The notes beneath the pieces were generated by a model that saw only the letters and a program-made list of their open reading frames with translations, was not told the DNA's origin and ran no database searches. Shown here piece by piece: positions 9,347 to 32,579 of a stretch of DNA of 64,000 bases; position 1 is the first letter of the stretch; every line of letters begins with the position of its first letter. The stretch spans positions 7,192,001 to 7,256,000 of the forward strand of contig NZ_CP023699.1 in assembly GCF_008704495.1 (NCBI RefSeq), given 5' to 3'. The position numbers and the translations under genes are program-made. The DNA comes from Streptomyces kanamyceticus. GTDB taxonomy: Bacteria > Actinomycetota > Actinomycetes > Streptomycetales > Streptomycetaceae.

Positions 9347-10813
9347 ATGACGAGTACGGACGAACCGGCACAGACCGGCGACGGTGCCCTGGCGGAGCCG
9401 GACCCCGCCGCGCCGCGGCAGTTGATCTCCTGGGTGACGCTCGCCCTCATGACCACCGCGTCCGTGGCCAGCCTGCGCCCCTCGCCGTCGATGGCCATCT
9501 ACGGGCTCGCCGCGGTCTTCCTCTATCTGCTGCCCGCCATCGTCTTCCTGCTCCCCACCGCCCTGGTCGGCGCCGAACTGGCCTCCGGGTGGTCCGGCGG
9601 CATCTACCGGTGGGTGAGCGAGGCGCTCGGCAAGCCGCTCGGGTTCGTCGCCGTGTGGTGCCAGTTCGCCATGACCATCGCGTACTACCCGAGCCTGCTC
9701 GCCTACGTGGCCTCGACGTTCGCGTACGTCGTGCACCCGAGCCTCGCCGAGAACGGCCCCTACGTAGCGATCGTCATCGTCGTCATCTACTGGACGGGCG
9801 TGTGGATCACCTCGCGCGGCACCAGGACCGTCGCGGGGCTCTCCTCGCTCGGGCTCGTCATCGGCACGCTCATCCCCGGCGTCGTCCTCGTCGTGCTCGG
9901 CCTCGTCTTCCTGGGGCAGGGCAACGCGTCCGCCGCGCCCATGTCCCCGGACCACTGGCTGCCGCCGTGGACCGGGCTCGCCAGCCTGGTCCTCATCGTC
10001 AACAACTTCCTCTCCTACGCGGGCATGGAGATGAACGGCGTCCATGTGTCGTCCCTGCGCCACCCCCGCGCCGAGTACCCGCGCTCGATCTTCCTCGCCA
10101 CCGGCCTCGTCCTGCTGATCTTCATCCTTCCGGCCCTGGCCATCAGCTGGGTCATGCCGTCGGAGCAGCTCAGCCTCACCGCGGGGCTGATGCAGGCGTT
10201 CCAGGCGTTCTTCGACCACTTCCACGTCGGCTGGCTGACGAAGGTCGTCGGCATCATGCTCGTCATGGCCGCGCTCGGCGGCATGCTCACCTGGCTCGCG
10301 GGGCCTTCCAAGGGGCTGGTGACGCTCGCCAGGCAGGAGGGCTATCTGCCGCCCTTCCTGCAGAAGTTCAACAAGGCGGGCGTGCCGCGGAACATCATGG
10401 TCGCGCAGGGCGTGGTGACCACCCTGATCGGCGTCCTCTACGCCTTCAGCGACGACGTCTCCAGTGCCTACTGGATGTTCTCCGTCATCACCGTGCAGAT
10501 CTATCTGATCGCCTACTTGCTGATGTTCGTGTCCGTCGTGCGGCTGCGGAAGTCCCAGCCGCACGTGGCGCGCGGCTTCGTGGTGCCTGCCGTGACGCTC
10601 GTCGCGGGCGTCGGATTCGTCGCCTCGGTCCTCGCCCTCGCCATCGGCTTCGTGCCGCCCGACCAGTTCGGCAAGGGGCCGCTCTGGCGCTATCTGCTGA
10701 TCGTCGGCGGCGGTCTGCTCGCGCTGGGCGTCCTGGCTCCCGCCGCGTTCCTCAAGTTCCGCAAACCCGGCTGGATCCACCCCGACCACAGGGCGCTCGA
10801 TGGAACCAAATAG
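9347..10813 (+). CDS. APC superfamily amino acid permease/antiporter (GadC-like)
   Basis: 488 aa with about 12 transmembrane helices. The first helix region and the GGIYRWVSEALGKPLGF segment match the glutamate:GABA-antiporter-like subgroup of the APC superfamily. NNFLSYAGMEMNGVHV in the middle is a conserved helix of that group. The ATG at this position directly precedes a short polar N-terminus; an upstream in-frame start would run through the promoter region shared with the divergent DUF6153-like gene. It is translationally linked to the next gene by an overlap. The substrate is unknown. Confidence 0.9.
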   Translation: MTSTDEPAQTGDGALAEPDPAAPRQLISWVTLALMTTASVASLRPSPSMAIYGLAAVFLYLLPAIVFLLPTALVGAELASGWSGGIYRWVSEALGKPLGFVAVWCQFAMTIAYYPSLLAYVASTFAYVVHPSLAENGPYVAIVIVVIYWTGVWITSRGTRTVAGLSSLGLVIGTLIPGVVLVVLGLVFLGQGNASAAPMSPDHWLPPWTGLASLVLIVNNFLSYAGMEMNGVHVSSLRHPRAEYPRSIFLATGLVLLIFILPALAISWVMPSEQLSLTAGLMQAFQAFFDHFHVGWLTKVVGIMLVMAALGGMLTWLAGPSKGLVTLARQEGYLPPFLQKFNKAGVPRNIMVAQGVVTTLIGVLYAFSDDVSSAYWMFSVITVQIYLIAYLLMFVSVVRLRKSQPHVARGFVVPAVTLVAGVGFVASVLALAIGFVPPDQFGKGPLWRYLLIVGGGLLALGVLAPAAFLKFRKPGWIHPDHRALDGTK

Positions 10814-11552
10814 CATTTGTCAACCGATGTCATCATCCACGACGACCGTCACGGCAGAGGCCATGTCCCCACGGAAGCAGCCGCGCACCACCCGGACCTC
10901 CGCCGTGCTCGTCCCGCTCCTCCTGCTCATCGGCGCCCTCACGTACAGCACCTGGCTGCTGGAGGCGTTCCTGCCGACGGGCCTGTCGCCCCTGCGGTCG
11001 TACGTCAGCGAACTCGCCGGAGAGGACCAGCCGTACGGGACCTTCTTCCGCACGGCCGACCTGCTCGGGGGCCTCTTCGTCCTCCTGGGCGCGGTGGCCG
11101 CGCTGGTGTGGCTCGAACGCCGGGTCCTGACCGTGGCGGGCTGGGCCGGTCTCGTCCTGTTCGGCGCGGCCACGGTGGCCGACTCGCGGTTGCCGCTGAG
11201 CTGCGCGCCGACCGCCGACGCGGGCTGCGCGGCGCGGGAGCGTGCGGGTGACATCCCCTGGACGCACGCCGCGCACGCGTTCAGCAGCAGCCTGGCGGTC
11301 GCGGGGGCGCTGATCGGCATGGTGCTGCTCACGGTCGCCGCCCGGCGAGGCACGGCCGCCTGGCCCCTCCTCGCACGCACGGGACCCGTCCTCGTCGTCA
11401 TCGAACTGGCCGCCACCGGCTGGACGCTGGCGTCCGTCGCCGCGTTCGACGCGGGGCACGGCACCTGGGGCCTCGGGATCGCCCAGCGCTTCCAGCTCCT
11501 GTCCATCGCGGTCTGGATCGCGCTCCTCGCCTGGTCGGTGCGGCGGCGGTGA
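10800..11552 (+). CDS. DUF998 family membrane protein
   Basis: Up to 250 aa with six predicted hydrophobic helices. The conserved DUF998 features are present: an N-terminal helix followed by LSPLRSYVSELAG, then FRTADLLGGLF, and a C-terminal GIAQRFQLLSIAVWI. Three starts are possible. The first ATG overlaps the permease by 14 bp and has AGGG upstream, favouring coupled translation; ATGs at 10827 and 10863 would shorten the polar N-terminus. It overlaps the next gene by 4 bp (GTGA). Function unknown. Confidence 0.8.
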   Translation: MEPNSICQPMSSSTTTVTAEAMSPRKQPRTTRTSAVLVPLLLLIGALTYSTWLLEAFLPTGLSPLRSYVSELAGEDQPYGTFFRTADLLGGLFVLLGAVAALVWLERRVLTVAGWAGLVLFGAATVADSRLPLSCAPTADAGCAARERAGDIPWTHAAHAFSSSLAVAGALIGMVLLTVAARRGTAAWPLLARTGPVLVVIELAATGWTLASVAAFDAGHGTWGLGIAQRFQLLSIAVWIALLAWSVRRR

Positions 11553-12346
11553 CCTTCGTACGCGTCGGGGGAGTGCCGCACCACGTCGAGGTGACCGGCA
11601 GCGGGCCCGTCTGCGTGCTGAGCGCCGGGCTCGGGCTCAGCTGGTTCGACTGGGACCGCGTGGTGCCGCTGCTCGCGCCGTCCCGCACCGTCGTCCGCTT
11701 CGACCGCCCCGGGCTCGGCCTGAGCGGGCACGCGCGCGTGGCGCCCACCGCGCGCGGCGAGGCCGAGCGGATCCGTGCCGTCCTCGACGCGGTGGGGCTC
11801 GGCGGGCGGCGGGTCACGGTGGCGGGCCACTCGCTCGCCGGATTCCACGCCGAGGCGTTCGCGCGCCTGTACCCGGAGCGGACTGCGGGCCTCGTCCTGG
11901 TGGACTCCAGCGTGGAGGAACACCCGCGCGTCCGGTTGCCGCGTGCCCCACGGGTGGCCTGCACGCGCGCGTGCGCGACGGTGCTGTGCGCGGCCGGGGT
12001 GCCGAGGGCGGTGGGCCCCCTGCTGCGGCGCCTGCTGGCACCTCACCCCCAGGCCTGGGTCTACGGAACCAGCCGTGTGTGGCAGGCGGCACTCATGGAG
12101 TACGCGACGTACGGCGACGTGGCGATCGAACTCTCCGCCCTGCGCAGCGAGTTCCCCCTGGCCGACCTGCCGGTGACGGTCCTGGCCGCCCACGCGGGCG
12201 GCTCCCGTCGCTGGCTGACCCGCCAGCACCACCTGGCCACGAGCCTCGCGGCACCGTTCCATGTCGCGGAGCCGTCGGGTCACCTGGTCATGCGGGACCG
12301 CCCCGCGGACGTGGCGGAGGCGATCCTGACGACGGGCCCCCGTTAG
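11549..12346 (+). CDS. Alpha/beta-fold hydrolase
   Basis: 265 aa, likely cytoplasmic. It shows the usual order: oxyanion region near LSAGLGLSWFDW, then FDRPGLGLSG, the nucleophile elbow GHSLAGFHAEAF (Ser about residue 94), an acidic loop near VLAAHAG and a terminal His in PSGHLVMRD. The GTG start overlaps the stop of the DUF998 gene, so the three genes from 9347 onward form one coupled transcription unit. Substrate unknown (esterase, lipase or lactonase types share this layout). Confidence 0.88.
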   Translation: MTFVRVGGVPHHVEVTGSGPVCVLSAGLGLSWFDWDRVVPLLAPSRTVVRFDRPGLGLSGHARVAPTARGEAERIRAVLDAVGLGGRRVTVAGHSLAGFHAEAFARLYPERTAGLVLVDSSVEEHPRVRLPRAPRVACTRACATVLCAAGVPRAVGPLLRRLLAPHPQAWVYGTSRVWQAALMEYATYGDVAIELSALRSEFPLADLPVTVLAAHAGGSRRWLTRQHHLATSLAAPFHVAEPSGHLVMRDRPADVAEAILTTGPR

Positions 12347-25527: not shown

Positions 25528-25986
25528 TCAGCGCCCGAACCGCCACCGCGTCTGGCTGAACGGCTCGCCCTTGCCGAAACCGAACACGGTGCGCGGCCGC
25601 ACCGCGAAGACGTACGCGTGTCCCGCGCCGTGGTGGAAGCAGCCGTCCCTGACCTCGTAGTGCCAGAAGCTGCCGTACTTCTCCTCCCACGCGGCGGCGA
25701 GCCCCCGCAGCTCCGCGTCGTCGGCGACCCGCACCGCCGTGCCCTCCACGACCAGGTCGTAGCCCTTGTCCCAGAGGTTCACGCCGGTGGTCAGGACGGT
25801 CTCGGGGTTGGCGGCGAGATTGCGGGCCTTGCGCTCCTCGGGTCCTGTGGCGAAGTGCAGCGCGCCGTCCCGCCAGACCGCGGGGAGCGGCGTGACGTGC
25901 GGGCGCCCTTCCGGGCGTACGGTCGAGATCCGGAACTGTCTGCATGGTCCGTACGGGGTCGGACTCCGCGCGCGGGCGGAACTCAT
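25528..25986 (-). CDS. Pyridoxamine-5-phosphate-oxidase-like (PPOX, split beta-barrel) flavin protein
   Basis: About 152 aa. The flavin/F420-binding split barrel is seen in FRISTVRPEGRPHVTPLPAVW, LHFATGPEERKARNLAANPETVL, YDLVVEGTAVRV and the C-terminal VFAVRPRTVFGFGKGEPFSQTRWRF. Actinobacterial members often use F420 or FMN to reduce small molecules or simply bind flavin. The upstream limit of the start is uncertain; the ATG at 25986 is taken. It is divergent from glnE across 51 bp. Confidence 0.85.
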   Translation of the reverse strand: MSSARARSPTPYGPCRQFRISTVRPEGRPHVTPLPAVWRDGALHFATGPEERKARNLAANPETVLTTGVNLWDKGYDLVVEGTAVRVADDAELRGLAAAWEEKYGSFWHYEVRDGCFHHGAGHAYVFAVRPRTVFGFGKGEPFSQTRWRFGR

Positions 25987-26037
25987 CGGCGAGGCCGTAG
26001 GCTCTGGCCAGGAGTGAGGGAACGGAGGCGCGGGACC

Positions 26038-29000
26038 ATGACGCTGCCGCACGAGGGGGAGAGCGCGAAGCGCCCGCTGAAAGGGGGGTGGCGGGAGACC
26101 GGGGGACGCAGGAGCAGTACGTTCACGCGGCTGCTGCGGCACGGCTTCACCGATCCCTCGGCGGCCGAGCGGCTGCTCGACGCCCCGGACCTGGACACGG
26201 TCCGTGACGACCCGCTGCTCCTCGACGCACTCGGCGCCACCGCGGACCCCGACCTCGCGCTGCTCGGCCTTGTCCGGCTCGTCGAGGGCCAGGAGGACGA
26301 GGTGGGCCGCCGCGAGCTGCTCGACACCCTGGTCACCGCCAAGCCGCTGCGCGACCGCCTGCTCGGCGTGCTCGGCGCCTCCGAGGCGCTCGCCGACCAC
26401 CTGGCGCGGCACCCCCGCGACTGGCGGGCCCTCGTCACCTACGAGGCGGTCGACCTGCACCCCGGTGTCGAGGAGTTCGAGCGGGGCCTGGCCGAGGCCA
26501 CGGACCCGGTGTCGCTGCGCGTCTCCTACCGCCGCTGTCTGCTCGCCATAGCGGCCCGCGACGTGTGCGGCACCACCGACGTCGCCGAGGCCGCGGCCGA
26601 GCTCGCCGACCTCGCGACGGCGACGCTGCGCGCGGCGCTCGCCATGGCCCGCGCGGCCGCGCCCGCCGACGCCGCGCAGTGCAGGCTCGCGGTCATCGCG
26701 ATGGGCAAGTGCGGTGGCCACGAGCTCAATTACGTCTCGGACGTCGACGTCATCTTCGTCGGCGAGGCCGTCGAAGGGGCCGACGAGGGCAAGGCGCTGC
26801 GGGCCGCGACCCGGCTCGCCTCGCACATGATGCGGATCTGCTCGGAGACCAACGTCGAGGGCACCATCTGGCCGGTCGACGCGAACCTGCGCCCGGAGGG
26901 CCGCAACGGCCCGCTGGTGCGCACCCTGAGCAGCCATCTCGCCTACTACCAGCGGTGGGCGAAGACCTGGGAGTTCCAGGCGCTGCTCAAGGCCCGCCCG
27001 GTCGCGGGCGACCTGGAGCTCGGCGAGGAGTACGTCGCCACGCTCGCGCCGCTCGTCTGGCACGCCGCCGAGCGCGAGAACTTCGTGGCCGACGTGCAGA
27101 AGATGCGCCGCCGCGTCATCGAGAACATCCCCGCGGGCGAGGTCGACCGGGAGCTGAAGCTCGGACCCGGCGGGCTGCGGGACGTCGAATTCGCCGTACA
27201 GATGCTGCAGTTGGTGCACGGCCGCAGCGACACGTCCATCCGCAGCGGCTCCACGCTCGAAGCGCTCGCGGCGCTCGGCGCGGGCGGGTACGTGGGGCGG
27301 GTCGACGCCGCCCAGCTCGACGACGCGTACCGCTTCCTGCGCGCCCTGGAACACCGCATCCAGCTCTACAAGCTGCGGCGCACCCACCTGGTGCCCGAGG
27401 ACGACGCGGACCTGCGCCGCATCGGCCGCTCGCTCGGCATGCGCACCGAGCCGATCACCGAGCTGAACCGCGCCTGGAAGCGGCACACCTCCGTGGTGCG
27501 CAGGCTGCACGAGAAGCTCTTCTACCGTCCGCTGCTCGACGCCGTCGCCCAACTCGCCCCCGGCGAGACCCGGTTGAGTACGACCGCGGCGCGCGAGCGG
27601 CTCGTCGCGCTCGGCTACGCGGACCCGAGCGCCGCGCTCAGGCACCTGGAGGCGCTGGCGTCCGGGGTGTCCCGCAAGGCGGCCATCCAGCGCACGCTGC
27701 TTCCCGTCCTGCTCGGCTGGTTCGCGGACTCGGCCGACCCGGACGCGGGCCTGCTCGGCTTCCGCAAGGTGTCCGACGCGCTCGGCAAAACCCCTTGGTA
27801 CCTCAGGCTGTTGAGGGACGAGGGCGCAGCGGCCGAGAACCTGGCGCGGGTCCTCTCCGCCGGACGGCTCGCCCCCGACCTGCTGCTGCGCGCCCCCGAG
27901 GCGGTCGCCCTGCTCGGCGATCAGCGGGGCCTCGAACCGCGCGGCCGCGCGGCCCTCGAACAGGAGATCCTGGCCGCGGTGCGCCGCGCGGACGGCGCGG
28001 AGCAGGCGGTGACGGCGGCCCGCGGAGTGCGCAGGCGCGAGCTGTTCCGTACGGCCGCGGGCGACATCATCGGTTCCTACGGCACGGAGGAGAGCCCCGC
28101 GGAGGCCGACCCCGGCGCGCTGGTGGACCGGGTCGGCGACGCCATCTCCGACCTGACGTCGGCCACCCTCGCGGGCACGCTCCGCGCGGTCGTCCGCGAC
28201 GGCTGGGGCGACACGCTGCCGACCCGCTTCGCCGTGATCGGCATGGGCCGCTTCGGCGGCCACGAGCTGGGCTACGGCTCGGACGCCGACGTCCTGTTCG
28301 TGCACGAGCCGCGCGAGGGCGCCGACGAGCAGGAGGCGGCGAAGGCGGCCGCCAAGGTGGTCGCCGAGATGCGCAGGCTCCTCCAACTCCCCTCCGCCGA
28401 CCCGCCGTTGCTCATCGACGCGGATCTGCGCCCGGAGGGCAGGAGCGGCCCCCTGGTGCGCACGCTCAAGTCGTACGCGGCCTACTACCGCCGCTGGTCC
28501 CTGGTCTGGGAGTCCCAGGCGCTCCTGCGGGCCGAACCGGTCGCGGGCGACGAGGAACTCGGCCGCGCCTTCATCGACCTCGTCGCCCCGCTGCGCTACC
28601 CGCCCGAGGGCCTCGGCGAGGACGCGATCCGCGAGGTCCGCCGCCTCAAGGCCCGCATGGAGGCGGAGCGGATGCCGCGCGGCGCCGACCCGACCCTGCA
28701 CGCCAAGCTGGGCCGCGGCGGCCTCTCCGACGTCGAATGGACCGTCCAGCTCCTGCAGTTGGAGCACGCCTGGGCCGAGCCGGGCCTGCGCACGACCCGC
28801 ACCCGCGAGGCGCTCGCCGCGGCCTGCGCGGCGGAGCTGATCCCGGCCGAGGAGGCGGCGACCCTCGACGAGGCCTGGGTGCTCGCGACGCGCGTACGGA
28901 ACGCGGTGATGCTGGTGCGCGGCCGCGCGGGCGACACCTTCCCCTCCGATGGACGGGAACTGGCCGCGGTGGCGCGCTACTTGGGCTACGACCCCGGACA

Positions 29001-29082
29001 CGTCGGCGACATGCTCGACGACTACCGGCGGATCACCCGCAGGGCGCGGGCGGTCATGGAGGAGCGATTTTACGGGGCGTAG
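26038..29082 (+). CDS. glnE: Bifunctional glutamine synthetase adenylyltransferase/adenylyl-removing enzyme
   Basis: 1014 aa, matching the usual length of about 1000. Two nucleotidyltransferase modules are present: GGHELNYVSDVDVIFV (about residues 222-240, adenylyl-removing half) and GGHELGYGSDADVLFV (about 740-757, adenylyl-transferring half), both with the Asp-x-Asp metal pair intact. Each is followed by DANLRPEGRNGPL or DADLRPEGRSGPL and a helical KLGxGGLxDVE segment. The enzyme modifies the conserved Tyr of class-I glutamine synthetase; the adjacent GlnA2 lacks that segment, so the target is the GlnA encoded elsewhere. ATG with GGAGG upstream. Confidence 0.97.
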   Translation: MTLPHEGESAKRPLKGGWRETGGRRSSTFTRLLRHGFTDPSAAERLLDAPDLDTVRDDPLLLDALGATADPDLALLGLVRLVEGQEDEVGRRELLDTLVTAKPLRDRLLGVLGASEALADHLARHPRDWRALVTYEAVDLHPGVEEFERGLAEATDPVSLRVSYRRCLLAIAARDVCGTTDVAEAAAELADLATATLRAALAMARAAAPADAAQCRLAVIAMGKCGGHELNYVSDVDVIFVGEAVEGADEGKALRAATRLASHMMRICSETNVEGTIWPVDANLRPEGRNGPLVRTLSSHLAYYQRWAKTWEFQALLKARPVAGDLELGEEYVATLAPLVWHAAERENFVADVQKMRRRVIENIPAGEVDRELKLGPGGLRDVEFAVQMLQLVHGRSDTSIRSGSTLEALAALGAGGYVGRVDAAQLDDAYRFLRALEHRIQLYKLRRTHLVPEDDADLRRIGRSLGMRTEPITELNRAWKRHTSVVRRLHEKLFYRPLLDAVAQLAPGETRLSTTAARERLVALGYADPSAALRHLEALASGVSRKAAIQRTLLPVLLGWFADSADPDAGLLGFRKVSDALGKTPWYLRLLRDEGAAAENLARVLSAGRLAPDLLLRAPEAVALLGDQRGLEPRGRAALEQEILAAVRRADGAEQAVTAARGVRRRELFRTAAGDIIGSYGTEESPAEADPGALVDRVGDAISDLTSATLAGTLRAVVRDGWGDTLPTRFAVIGMGRFGGHELGYGSDADVLFVHEPREGADEQEAAKAAAKVVAEMRRLLQLPSADPPLLIDADLRPEGRSGPLVRTLKSYAAYYRRWSLVWESQALLRAEPVAGDEELGRAFIDLVAPLRYPPEGLGEDAIREVRRLKARMEAERMPRGADPTLHAKLGRGGLSDVEWTVQLLQLEHAWAEPGLRTTRTREALAAACAAELIPAEEAATLDEAWVLATRVRNAVMLVRGRAGDTFPSDGRELAAVARYLGYDPGHVGDMLDDYRRITRRARAVMEERFYGA

Positions 29083-29447
29083 GGCGCGCTTGAGCAGTTT
29101 CGGCGCATTACCTCAACCCGCTTCGCGGGCGGGGCCAGGCTGGTCCTGACGGGCAGGGACGCGGCGGCCGGGGCAGGAGTGGCGCCGACGGTCCCGCGCG
29201 TGGGTCGCGTGGCGAGAACGCCGTGCATCGAGGCGCGTCTTGAGCGCCCTCCGCAAGAGCCGTAGCGACCTCCGGTGAGAGGTGCGCGCACGTCTAGCGC
29301 CCCTGGACGCGCCTTTGCAAGCCCGGCGGCGCCGATCAGGATTCTCAGGGTGAGCGGCGGTCGGCAGCTCCCGTTTCCGCGCTCGTTGAGCCCGCTCGAC
29401 GCGTATCGACCTGCACACCCCGGTCCCAGGCGATAAGGAAGTGCCCG
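29083..29447. other. Intergenic gap between glnE and the terpenoid operon
   Basis: 365 bp without a credible gene on either strand. Only a small hairpin (CCCGC-ttc-GCGGG near 29120) was seen and no convincing promoter or operator. Being at the boundary of a probably acquired operon, it is a place to look for junction sequence. Confidence 0.6.
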
Positions 29448-30173
29448 ATGAGTACTCCGCGCGACCACCCCAACCCCACGGCCCTCGCCCCGGGCGGCGG
29501 GCCACGGCACGTCGCCTTCATCGTGGACGGCAACCGCCGTTGGGCGCAGGCGCACGGCCACCCCGTAGAGCACGGTCACCAGGTGGGCGCGGACAACGTC
29601 TGCCGGGCCGTTCACTGGTGCGAGTCCGTGGGCATAGAGACCACCACGTGGTGGCTGCTCTCGACGGACAACCTCAACCGCACCGAGGCCGAGCTCCACA
29701 AACTCCTCGACATCATCTCCGAACTGACCGACCGTCTCGCGGCAGCCGGGCACTGGCGCATGCGTCACCTCGGGAACCCCCGGCTGCTCCCCGACTCGCT
29801 GGCGACCGCGCTGTGCCGGGCGGAGGCCACCACCTCTCGCAATCAGGGCCCGCAGATCAACTTCGCGGTCGGCTACAGCGGTCGGCAGGACATCCTCGCC
29901 GCGGCGCGCCTCATCGCCCACCAGGCGGTCACGTCCGCCGGATTCTCCGTCTCCGAGAGGTCGTTCGCCCAGGCCCTGTCCACCAGCGGGCTGCCCGATC
30001 CGGACCTGGTGATCCGCACCTCGGGCGAACAGCGCCTCTCCGGCTTCATGCTCTGGCAGGCGGCTCTCTCCGAACTCTATTTCTGCCCCGTTCTGTGGCC
30101 CGACTTCACGCAGTCCGACCTCCACCGCGCCCTGGCCTTCTACGGCGACCGTCAGCGGCGATTCGGAAAGTAG
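29448..30173 (+). CDS. cis-Prenyltransferase, short-chain (Z,E-FPP synthase-like) isoprenyl diphosphate synthase
   Basis: 241 aa of the UppS fold. Catalytic Asp and diphosphate loop FIVDGNRRWAQ (about residues 26-36), the His of GHQVG, the LSTDNLNRTEAELHKLL segment typical of the actinobacterial short-chain group, the VGYSGRQDI loop and the IPP-binding RTSGEQRLSGFMLWQ (about 188-202) are all intact. By family it condenses allylic diphosphates with IPP in cis, giving Z,E-farnesyl diphosphate or a somewhat longer product; lavandulyl-type head-to-middle coupling also occurs in this fold. First gene of a three-gene operon with a terpene synthase homologue and a P450, so it probably supplies the cyclase rather than cell-wall synthesis. 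Confidence 0.92.
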   Translation: MSTPRDHPNPTALAPGGGPRHVAFIVDGNRRWAQAHGHPVEHGHQVGADNVCRAVHWCESVGIETTTWWLLSTDNLNRTEAELHKLLDIISELTDRLAAAGHWRMRHLGNPRLLPDSLATALCRAEATTSRNQGPQINFAVGYSGRQDILAAARLIAHQAVTSAGFSVSERSFAQALSTSGLPDPDLVIRTSGEQRLSGFMLWQAALSELYFCPVLWPDFTQSDLHRALAFYGDRQRRFGK

Positions 30174-30192
30174 AGCAGGAAGGAACCGCAGC

Positions 30193-31230
30193 ATGCTCCA
30201 GAGGCCTCTTCTGTCTCCCGGCCCCGAGACCACGGACGACATCCCCGGTGCGTTCCACCCCCTGAAACCCTGGCTGCTCTCCCATCTGGGAAAGGGGCGT
30301 GAGACGTATCCCGCGCACCCGTGGACCGACGAGCTGGAGTCCGCCATTCTCGCCTGGGCGGCAGATCTCGGGTTGAGCAAGGAGCACATCAAGATAACGG
30401 CCGAGGCGACGCCCGGGCACCTGGTGGGGCTCTTCGCCCCGCAGGCCCCGTGGAACGTGCTGCTCCCGCTGGCCAAGCTGCAAATGATCCTGTTCTGGCT
30501 GAACACCGTGGACCTCGGTGCCGATCAACCGGTCGGTCATCTCATGGAGCCGGTGAGGGAGACCCTGGAAAGGGGGCATTCGCCGTCCGGCGGGCCGGAC
30601 ATCCTCAGGCCGATCGCCAGTCTCCGCGACGACATCATCGCCGCGGGAGGGGCCGGCCTGATTCCCGGGTTCACCGAGCTGCTGTTGGGATTCCTGCACG
30701 AGTACACGTTTCGGCAGGCGTGGGAGAGCGGGGAACCCCTCCCGAGCCTGGACCGGTACCTGCAGCACAGGACGCGCACGGCGGGAATCGTCCTCGGCAT
30801 GTGGGTGCAGCGGCTTCAGCCCGGCCTCACCGGTCCTGGGGAGCAGCTGCCCGCGCCGCTGCTCCAGCTCATGAAACAGGGCAGCCTTCTCGTCGGCCTC
30901 GACAATGACCTGCACAGCTGCCATGTGGCGGCCGAATCGGGAGAAAGGCTCAGCCTCATCGGCGTCATCTGCCAGGAGTACGGAATTCCGGTGGACATGG
31001 CCTTCTCCTGCGCGCTCACCCTCAACGCGGCGATGCGTTACGAGAACGCCAACACCGTCGCCTCGATCTGCGCGGACACCTCCCTGCCCGATACGGCCAG
31101 GAGGCATGCCAGGACCATCTTCCACTGGGTCGACTCCGTCTACACGTGGTCCTTGGAGACGCCCCGCTACGGCTTGCGGAGCACCGATGCCCACGAACTC
31201 GTGACGCGCTCCTGCCCGGCCGGAGAGTGA
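30193..31230 (+). CDS. Class I terpene synthase homologue with non-canonical metal-binding motifs
   Basis: 345 aa, the usual size for a bacterial single-domain terpene cyclase. The position of the Asp-rich motif holds FWLNTVDLGADQ (Asn104, Asp107, Asp111) instead of DDxxD. The NSE triad is NDLHSCHVAAE: Asn238 and Ser242 are in register, but the acidic residue is at +10 (Glu248) rather than +8 and the Lys is absent. The diphosphate-sensor Arg (RYLQHRTRTAG, Arg193, about 45 residues before Asn238) and the C-terminal RY pair (ETPRYGL, 325-326) are kept. It starts 19 bp after the cis-prenyltransferase and ends 5 bp before the P450. The product is unknown; loss of function is less likely because the frame, sensor Arg and RY pair are intact. 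Confidence 0.83.
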   Translation: MLQRPLLSPGPETTDDIPGAFHPLKPWLLSHLGKGRETYPAHPWTDELESAILAWAADLGLSKEHIKITAEATPGHLVGLFAPQAPWNVLLPLAKLQMILFWLNTVDLGADQPVGHLMEPVRETLERGHSPSGGPDILRPIASLRDDIIAAGGAGLIPGFTELLLGFLHEYTFRQAWESGEPLPSLDRYLQHRTRTAGIVLGMWVQRLQPGLTGPGEQLPAPLLQLMKQGSLLVGLDNDLHSCHVAAESGERLSLIGVICQEYGIPVDMAFSCALTLNAAMRYENANTVASICADTSLPDTARRHARTIFHWVDSVYTWSLETPRYGLRSTDAHELVTRSCPAGE

Positions 31231-31235
31231 GGGAC

Positions 31236-32579
31236 ATGGCGAGCTTGAGTTCGGTCCCCGTCGCGCCCAAGGCGCTCCCCGTCGTCGGTCATCTGATCCC
31301 GCTGCTGCGGAACCCGCTGGGATTCATCAACTCCCTCTCCGTGCACGGGGAACTCGTCCGCATCCAGCTGGGCCCCTTCACGCTGGTGATGATCTGCGAC
31401 CCGGAACTGACCCGGCAGGCCCTGGTCGACGACCGCGTCTTCGACAAAGGCGGCCCGATCTTCGACCGGGTGCGGGAAGTCGTCGGCGATGACGGCCTCG
31501 CCAGCTGTCCCTACAGCGCGCATCGGCGGCTGCGCAGGCTGGCCCAGCCCGCCTTCCATCCGGCACGGTTCCCCGGCTACGCGAAGGCCATGAGCGCCTG
31601 CGTCGAGGACGTGACCGGGTCCTGGCATGCCGGACAGGTCCTGGACGTGCCCACCGAGATGATGACCATCACGTGCAAGATCACGGCCACCACCCTGTTC
31701 TCCGGCGCGTTGCCGCCGGGCGAGCTCGGCCCGGTCCTCGACGACGTGAAGACCTTCTTCGACGGCTTCTACCAGCGCATGTTCATGGTCCCCCCGCTGG
31801 ACCGGATCCCCACCCAGGGCAACCGCTCCCACGTGCGCGCGCGCACCCGCCTACGCGCCGCCTTCGACCAGATCATCACCGAGCGCCGCGCCGAGGGCGT
31901 CGACCACGACGACCTGCTCTCGGCCCTGATCGCGGCCCACGACACCGAGGACGGCAGTCCCGGCATGACCGACGCGGAAGTCAGCGACACGGTCGTCACC
32001 CTCTTCCTCGCCGGTACGGAGACCGCCGCCTCCCTCCTGGCCTGGGCGCTGGACCTGCTGGCCGGGAACCCCCGGATGGAGCAGCGGCTGCACGCCGAGG
32101 TCGATGCCGTCCTGGGCGGGGCCACGGCCACCCACGCCGACCTGCCGCGGCTGGAACTGACGCGCCGCGTCATCACCGAAACCCTCCGGCTCCGCCCGCC
32201 GGGCTGGATCTTCACGCGCACCGTCACCGCCGACACCCGCCTGGGCGGGCACCTGCTGCCCGCCGGGAGCTACGTCGCCTACAGCCCCTACCTCGTCCAC
32301 CACCGGCCGGACCTCTACGACAACCCCGAAGCCTTCGACCCCGACCGCTGGGATCCGGCGCGCCCCCAGCCACCCCGCCACGCTTTCCTCCCCTTCGCCT
32401 CCGGCGCCCGCAAATGCATCGGCGACGCGTTCGGCATGACCGAGGCGGTCCTCGCCCTCGCGACCATCACCGCCCGCTGGCGCCTGGCACACCTGCCGGG
32501 CCACCAGCAGGTCCGCGCCGCTCTGGGGCTCGCGTTGCGGCCCCAGCGGCTGCGCCTGCGGGCAACGCCGCGCCCTTGA
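31236..32579 (+). CDS. Cytochrome P450 monooxygenase of the terpenoid operon
   Basis: 447 aa. The I-helix oxygen-binding motif is AGTETAAS (about 258), the K-helix ETLRLRP (Glu313/Arg316), PERF-like region FDPDRWDP, and the heme loop FLPFASGARKCIGDAFGMTEA with the Cys ligand at about 392. Length and motifs resemble the group of P450s that oxidise terpene hydrocarbons (pentalenene-oxygenase-like). Its ATG follows the cyclase stop by 5 bp with GAGTGAGGG as ribosome site. It needs a ferredoxin and reductase from elsewhere. The last 113 bp overlap, convergently, the 3' end of the PAP2 gene. Confidence 0.93.
   Translation: MASLSSVPVAPKALPVVGHLIPLLRNPLGFINSLSVHGELVRIQLGPFTLVMICDPELTRQALVDDRVFDKGGPIFDRVREVVGDDGLASCPYSAHRRLRRLAQPAFHPARFPGYAKAMSACVEDVTGSWHAGQVLDVPTEMMTITCKITATTLFSGALPPGELGPVLDDVKTFFDGFYQRMFMVPPLDRIPTQGNRSHVRARTRLRAAFDQIITERRAEGVDHDDLLSALIAAHDTEDGSPGMTDAEVSDTVVTLFLAGTETAASLLAWALDLLAGNPRMEQRLHAEVDAVLGGATATHADLPRLELTRRVITETLRLRPPGWIFTRTVTADTRLGGHLLPAGSYVAYSPYLVHHRPDLYDNPEAFDPDRWDPARPQPPRHAFLPFASGARKCIGDAFGMTEAVLALATITARWRLAHLPGHQQVRAALGLALRPQRLRLRATPRP

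Follow-up and report, generated by a model that had tools for sequence, protein, structure and literature searches.

A putative Z-prenyl terpenoid operon in Streptomyces kanamyceticus, encoding a synthase with altered class I metal motifs

A gene cluster that combines a cis-prenyltransferase (cPT), a terpene synthase (TS) and a cytochrome P450 has been described in tomato, and the subject of this analysis is a bacterial trio of similar composition located in a 64,000-nucleotide stretch of the Streptomyces kanamyceticus genome (contig NZ_CP023699.1, positions 7,192,001 to 7,256,000; hereafter, the window). As far as the excerpted text of PMC4364678 goes, the cluster on tomato chromosome 8 includes CPT2, TPS21 and CYP71BN1, which yield lycosantalonol upon co-expression in Escherichia coli, and also NDPS1 - TPS19/20. 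In that cluster, as described there in part, the cPT makes the substrate of the synthase and the P450 oxidises the product, which is also what is proposed for the window; the tomato genes differ, however, in that they are plant genes and the substrate is C20 nerylneryl diphosphate, and the parallel is one of logic, with no homology of the unit claimed. A bacterial point of reference is the short-chain Z-isoprenyl diphosphate synthetase represented by the chains 2vg1 and 2vfw, which we take to be Rv1086 of Mycobacterium tuberculosis. According to an excerpt of PMC7839719, the product of this type of enzyme is Z,E-farnesyl diphosphate (FPP). This enzyme matches the window cPT at 177 bits, and its generic actinobacterial homologues share with the latter a leucine at the chain-length position; the generic homologues differ, however, in that they read V-T-x-W-[LM]-L-S, form a separate clade and have no adjacent TS gene. 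On the Streptomyces clavuligerus plasmid pSCL4, a cPT gene likewise precedes a class I TS gene, here at a distance of 30 bp, and a P450 gene related to that of the window lies in the convergent orientation; the sequence of this cPT is identical to PDB entry 8wu7 over the aligned stretch. The plasmid cPT differs from that of the window, to which it is 44-45% identical, by the motif VWALS, with alanine at the chain-length site, and the plasmid synthase differs by its intact motifs, DDLIG and NDVASLHKE. The latter protein (L040 7800-9833) is annotated as hypothetical, yet matches PF19086 at 117 bits. A 2008 paper by Sato et al., listed among the references of PMC10301674, reports by its title that a nonpathogenic Mycobacterium cyclises a polyprenyl diphosphate of the Z type, as is proposed here, but with a C35 substrate. 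Among the titles and abstract openings listed in searches of the open-licence PMC literature, no paper on a bacterial cPT-TS cluster or operon was found, and PMC11070974 and PMC11574762, in the parts consulted, do not concern such pairing. The synthesis of cis-geranylfarnesyl compounds in S. clavuligerus has possibly been studied, but a search of the same literature for it gave no result.

The three co-directional genes of the window span positions 29448-32579 (Table 1), with spacers of 19 bp between cPT and TS and 5 bp between TS and P450, exactly as the sequence-only reading of this DNA had laid them out; an alternative GTG start of the P450 at 31227, 9 bp earlier, would result in a 4-bp overlap with the TS stop codon. 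We consider it fairly probable that the trio is a self-contained operon in which the cPT makes a short Z-prenyl diphosphate, a remodelled class I synthase cyclises it and the P450 oxidises the product. By head-to-tail condensation of an allylic primer with isopentenyl diphosphate (IPP), the cPT would form this Z-diphosphate, most likely C15 (2Z,6E)-FPP from geranyl diphosphate (GPP), otherwise C10 neryl diphosphate. The synthase, with its class I fold, would then ionise and cyclise this Z-diphosphate at a remodelled diphosphate site, in which R193, N238, S242 and R325-Y326 are retained and D107 and D111 stand in place of DDxxD, and the P450 would oxidise the resulting hydrocarbon. We infer that the synthase is active, that it uses the cPT product and that it acts before the P450.

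Table 1. Coordinates of the trio and its associated features within the window
Feature	Coordinates	Strand	Description
cPT	29448..30173	+	241 aa; PF01255
TS-fold protein	30193..31230	+	345 aa
Cytochrome P450	31236..32579	+	447 aa; PF00067
Upstream region travelling with the trio	29190..29447	+	aligned in 4 loci: window, L004, L005, L038
Asp-rich motif site	30502..30525	+	N104-T105-V106-D107-L108-G-A-D111 replaces DDxxD/E
NSE triad site	30904..30930	+	N238-D-L-H-S242-C-H-V-A246; third-ligand Glu replaced by Ala

The cPT matches PF01255 with a score of 230.6 bits (gathering score 27; positions 1-219 of 219) and contains the motifs DGNRRWA (residues 27-33), WWLLS (68-72; 29649-29663) and RTSGEQR (190-196; 30015-30035). 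In the alignment, DGNRRWA and RTSGEQRLSG, presumably the catalytic and IPP-binding motifs, are retained and the pattern RxSGExRxS is matched, in line with the earlier description of a cis-type enzyme with intact motifs. Leu70 occupies the position of an alanine in the undecaprenyl diphosphate synthase (UPPS) encoded in the same genome. We assume that this position sets the chain length and that a bulky residue marks enzymes making C15 or shorter products; the family and this pocket residue together suggest Z-geometry and a short chain, C10 or C15, and the clade-specific Trp68 may narrow the pocket further, making C10 possible. The best-matching solved chains are 8wu7 (188.8 bits) and 2vg1 (177.4 bits), whereas the chains named cyclolavandulyl diphosphate synthase score 59-63 bits and 5xk3, which we take to be Mcl22, scores 56 bits. 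Because of this difference, regular head-to-tail chemistry is favoured, with the proviso that the low scores of the cyclolavandulyl chains are a measure of closeness only, as distant regular enzymes, e.g., MM_0014 at 69 bits, can score equally low. The same scores bear on the alternative that the cPT is an irregular, head-to-middle enzyme that makes a branched, lavandulyl-type diphosphate. Enzymes of this kind with the cPT fold, CLPPS/CLDS and Mcl22, are known in Streptomyces (PMC7839719, as excerpted); nevertheless, the gap between 177 and 59-63 bits and the complete motifs make it highly improbable. Of the original proposal that the cyclase takes a Z-configured or branched diphosphate, the first part gains comparative support and the second is disfavoured.

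The trio is retained in Streptomyces sp. MZ04, S. flavofungini and the genome G280, and the gap between cPT and TS is 19 bp in all four trios, that of the window included. On a plasmid of Streptomyces sp. YIM 121038 (G351), the order is P450-cPT-TS, with identities of 44%, 58.5% and 43%, respectively, so that the trio, as the sequence-only reading had proposed to check, recurs in other streptomycetes and, reordered, on a plasmid. The conservation of the gene set through the change of order is strong evidence of a single pathway, and the trio is not a chance association because it is conserved in other loci with the 19-bp gap and because all three genes are subject to purifying selection. In each of the five examined loci with a TS of this family (L003, L004, L005, L038 and L036), the TS is accompanied by a cPT and a P450. 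About 10 kb from the YIM 121038 trio, the plasmid also carries genes for a trans-prenyl synthase and a UbiA prenyltransferase (L036 25843-27839). From a set of 5.8 billion proteins, a search with the TS returned 12 close homologues at 79-88% identity, of Streptomyces or unnamed actinobacterial origin, plus a single homologue at 32%, and a profile search added two distant ones; these protein-database searches are not exhaustive, given that neither returned the YIM 121038 synthase, even though this sequence formed part of the profile query, and further relatives may exist. Among 392 Streptomyces genomes, 91 match the TS, but only three at the family level (the window, 100%; G280, 82%; G351, 43%), the next match being at 30%; a cPT that reaches 60% identity to that of the window occurs in these three genomes and in no others of the set, the next being at 53%. 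Viewed from the synthase side, a cPT is encoded within 1.5 kb of the top four of 30 TS loci, and the remaining 26 lack one.

A phylogenetic tree of 33 cPT rows, in which 14 generic rows were chosen by hand among the 120 listed, places the window cPT in a well-supported (99/98) PRENYLTRANSFERASE clade, here denoted WW, together with the YIM enzyme, five closely related sequences and seven further ones. All 14 clade rows read [TS]-W-W-L-L-S and 15 generic-clade rows read V-T-x-W-[LM]-L-S; P0140, P0145, P0147 and the UPPS form long branches, and the branching within the WW clade is not settled. Gene neighbours were compared for the clade members other than P0017, P0018, P0021 and P0023-P0029. Searches started from the cPT yield four WW loci (the window, G280, G351 and G769), and in all four a TS gene lies directly downstream; G769 was found by the cPT alone and is the fully independent case, the other three being known also through the TS. 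In the search of 394 Actinomycetes genomes, 337 match the cPT, with a gap between G769 (417 bits) and G000 (415 bits) and the rest (about 306 bits or less). The G769 cPT, 97% identical to P0025, is followed at 111 bp by a TS (L111, reverse complement 9858-11819) that belongs to a different lineage and has the canonical motifs DDVMD and NDLVSVDKD; this is another candidate Z-terpene pair. By contrast, the 45 generic cPT loci examined, which amount to 43 separate sites because G107 and G013 occur twice, have no adjacent TS gene within flanks of 1.5 kb, or less at some contig ends, nor does WWLLS occur in any of these; the loci, 27 from the Streptomyces and 18 from the Actinomycetes search, are the best-scoring ones and not a random sample. 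The cPT of a Nonomuraea locus has no TS gene in its 1.5-kb flanks either.

A second paired type is characterised by VWALS and includes, in addition to pSCL4, the genome G228, where the synthase encoded next to the cPT (L037 7645-9674) has DDQLVE and a variant NSE motif, NDMLCYIRD, and resembles a protein named from S. bottropensis; a trio-type P450 was not found in this 19-kb stretch. On the TS tree, which contains several long branches, the paired synthases fall into at least two lineages, with at least three label changes forced, and on these grounds the prenyltransferase appears to have changed synthase partners over time.

The TS matches PF19086 at 40.2 bits, over residues 130-272 only, so that the Asp-rich part lies outside the match. 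The protein has the class I alpha-domain fold, but neither DDxxD/E nor a complete NSE/DTE triad, which goes beyond the "motif-deviant" label given to it in the sequence-only reading because both metal motifs are altered. The Asp-rich motif reads N-[T/S]-x-D-L in all 14 members, so that position 104 is N and position 107 is D both in the 13 close members and in the YIM 121038 synthase. Where the NSE glutamate would stand, 12 of the close members have A and one has G; the YIM 121038 homologue has E. Both the DD and the NSE glutamate are retained in all 27 control synthases, which amount to four clusters, or lineages, at 50-70% identity. The residues R193, N238, S242, R325 and Y326 do not vary across the 13 close members, nor in the YIM 121038 enzyme (among the controls, position 193 is R in 18 and W in nine); R193, R325 and Y326 are presumably diphosphate contacts, namely the Arg sensor and the C-terminal RY pair, and all three are present in the window protein. 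The ratio of nonsynonymous to synonymous substitution rates (dN/dS) for the TS is 0.17-0.29 in six pairwise comparisons of four loci, indicating purifying selection. A pseudogene or decaying gene was also considered and is rejected on account of these ratios and because the YIM 121038 synthase shares the altered Asp-rich motif; the internal TAG flagged in the G280 synthase, an open reading frame (ORF) of 336 aa, is the stop codon of that frame.

With carboxylates lost from both metal motifs, the usual mode of diphosphate ionisation may not apply to the TS. The strongest alternative is that the cPT makes a Z-prenyl diphosphate and the TS-fold protein no longer ionises, acting instead on a dephosphorylated or P450-oxidised prenyl substrate, by acid-base cyclisation or isomerisation, or binding the cPT as a partner. 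The replacement of the Asp-rich carboxylates in 14 of 14 members and of the NSE glutamate in 13, combined with purifying selection and with the presence of the cPT and P450 in the five examined loci of the family, fits this scenario; we nonetheless consider it unlikely, in view of the invariance of the predicted diphosphate contacts and N238/S242 and of the NSE glutamate kept in YIM 121038.

The genome encodes three PF01255 proteins including the window cPT, the others being a UPPS-type enzyme (L001, YAFSTENW), adjoining an ORF identified by eye as recO-like, and a generic short-chain type (L002, LWLLSTDN); no TS gene is found in the 1.5-kb flanks of either. The possibility, raised at the outset, that the window cPT is the sole housekeeping UPPS is thereby rejected. 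All four PF00348 matches, trans-prenyl synthases, lie outside the window, in accord with the initial observation that the cis-type enzyme is the only local prenyl diphosphate synthase; one of them (10080826) is encoded about 1.8 kb from another TS match (10078424). These four enzymes could supply E-substrates to the TS if the latter were an ordinary E,E-FPP (or GPP) cyclase and the cPT an independent protein, for instance a redundant enzyme of lipid-carrier synthesis or one that makes a prenyl donor. Also compatible with such independence is the finding that the cPT has a match with an E-value of 1e-60 or lower in 361 of the 392 Streptomyces genomes and that the examined generic loci have no nearby TS. 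We regard this explanation as improbable because the 19-bp spacing in all four trios, the conservation through reordering and the pairings with synthases of other lineages would be difficult to account for if the enzymes did not belong to one pathway. Conversely, the distinct cPT clade, the pairing kept through reordering, the pairings with synthases of other lineages and the lack of a trans-synthase in the window all support the proposal that the cPT feeds the TS.

The P450 matches PF00067 at 243.3 bits, and its best solved chain is 3dbg, which we take to be CYP170A1. Among named families, it comes closest to the terpene oxidases pentalenene oxygenase and albaflavenone monooxygenase (CYP170A1), but the NCBIfam scores are below both curated cut-offs (427.7 bits against 800 for NF045812, pentalenene oxygenase, and 379.1 bits for albaflavenone monooxygenase), and the substrate is not transferable. 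The P450 fits terpene oxidation and is uninformative on Z-geometry.

Several observations weigh against a dedicated Z-terpenoid pathway. Trio-type P450s also adjoin ordinary TS genes without a cPT (L087 and L089 of the same genome; L031), and for this reason the P450 provides no argument for a Z-substrate. The predicted chain length of the cPT product depends on one residue and on the assumed role of that residue. The locus G769 has no trio-type P450, and a convergent ORF there is read by eye as another P450. Of the eight paired loci tested, six, including that of the window, initially came to light by their TS. The cPT encoded on an S. anulatus plasmid, which falls outside the WW clade, has no neighbouring TS. 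A TS without Asp-rich carboxylates and the NSE glutamate may be inactive on diphosphates, and a review describes these residues as strongly conserved and resistant to mutation (PMC10563020, in the part consulted). The S. anulatus cPT gene is followed by that of a small protein that weakly matches PAP2 (L041 7962-9397), possibly a different cPT partnership.

About 260 bp of upstream DNA are common to the window and three other trios, with insertions in one. This region includes conserved blocks at 29239-29322 (CTTGAGCGCCC...CGCGCCTTTGCAA) and 29379-29409, and a third block, GTCCCAGGCGATAAGGAAGTGCCCGATG, extending as far as the cPT start codon; a consensus scan of 29190..29447 found no sigma-70-type promoter, and the region is possibly an operator or an unusual promoter. 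It also includes a GC-rich block with repeated GCGCCC. The ORF upstream of the trio is read as glnE, and downstream lies a convergent gene of the PAP2 family. The end of glnE is found inside the 1.5-kb flank of the PAP2 locus in six of 11 relatives (L074, L075, L077, L078, L082 and L084; not in the flanks at L076, L079, L080, L081 and L083), and among the 12 PAP2 loci compared, a trio-type P450 adjoins PAP2 only in the window; because of this, the trio looks like an insertion into an older glnE-PAP2 junction. The 3' ends of the PAP2 and P450 genes overlap by 113 bp (32467-32579). The best matches of the PAP2 protein, from 12 same-genus relatives, end at residues 282-307 of 318, so the tail of this protein may have been altered by the insertion. 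At glnE, ORFs of more than 1150 aa overlap on both strands (25528-29001, minus; 25618-29082, plus), the minus-strand one probably being a high-GC shadow ORF.

In sum, the observation of the trio is confirmed, and its interpretation as a Z-prenyl terpenoid operon of bacteria, whose synthase has altered class I metal motifs, is supported in part and extended, the logic being already known from tomato. A broader and more tentative idea, which we would not yet rate as probable, is that a lineage of bacterial prenyltransferases is devoted to terpene synthases, supplying Z-prenyl diphosphates as committed precursors and switching partners, and that one branch is paired with a class I synthase that is active and ionises a Z-diphosphate at a metal site that has been rebuilt or reduced and lacks both the DDxxD carboxylates and the NSE glutamate. 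A cisoid substrate, for which no trans-to-cis isomerisation is needed, may permit such a reduced site. Mining of bacterial terpenoids takes all-trans substrates as its starting point, and in some screens synthases are chosen by the DDxxD and NSE motifs (e.g., PMC7192455, as far as the excerpt goes). If the operon functions in the proposed way, such filters would hide this type of pathway, assays with E-substrates only would call such synthases dead, and it would become testable which of the textbook metal ligands are really needed by a class I synthase whose substrate is already cis.

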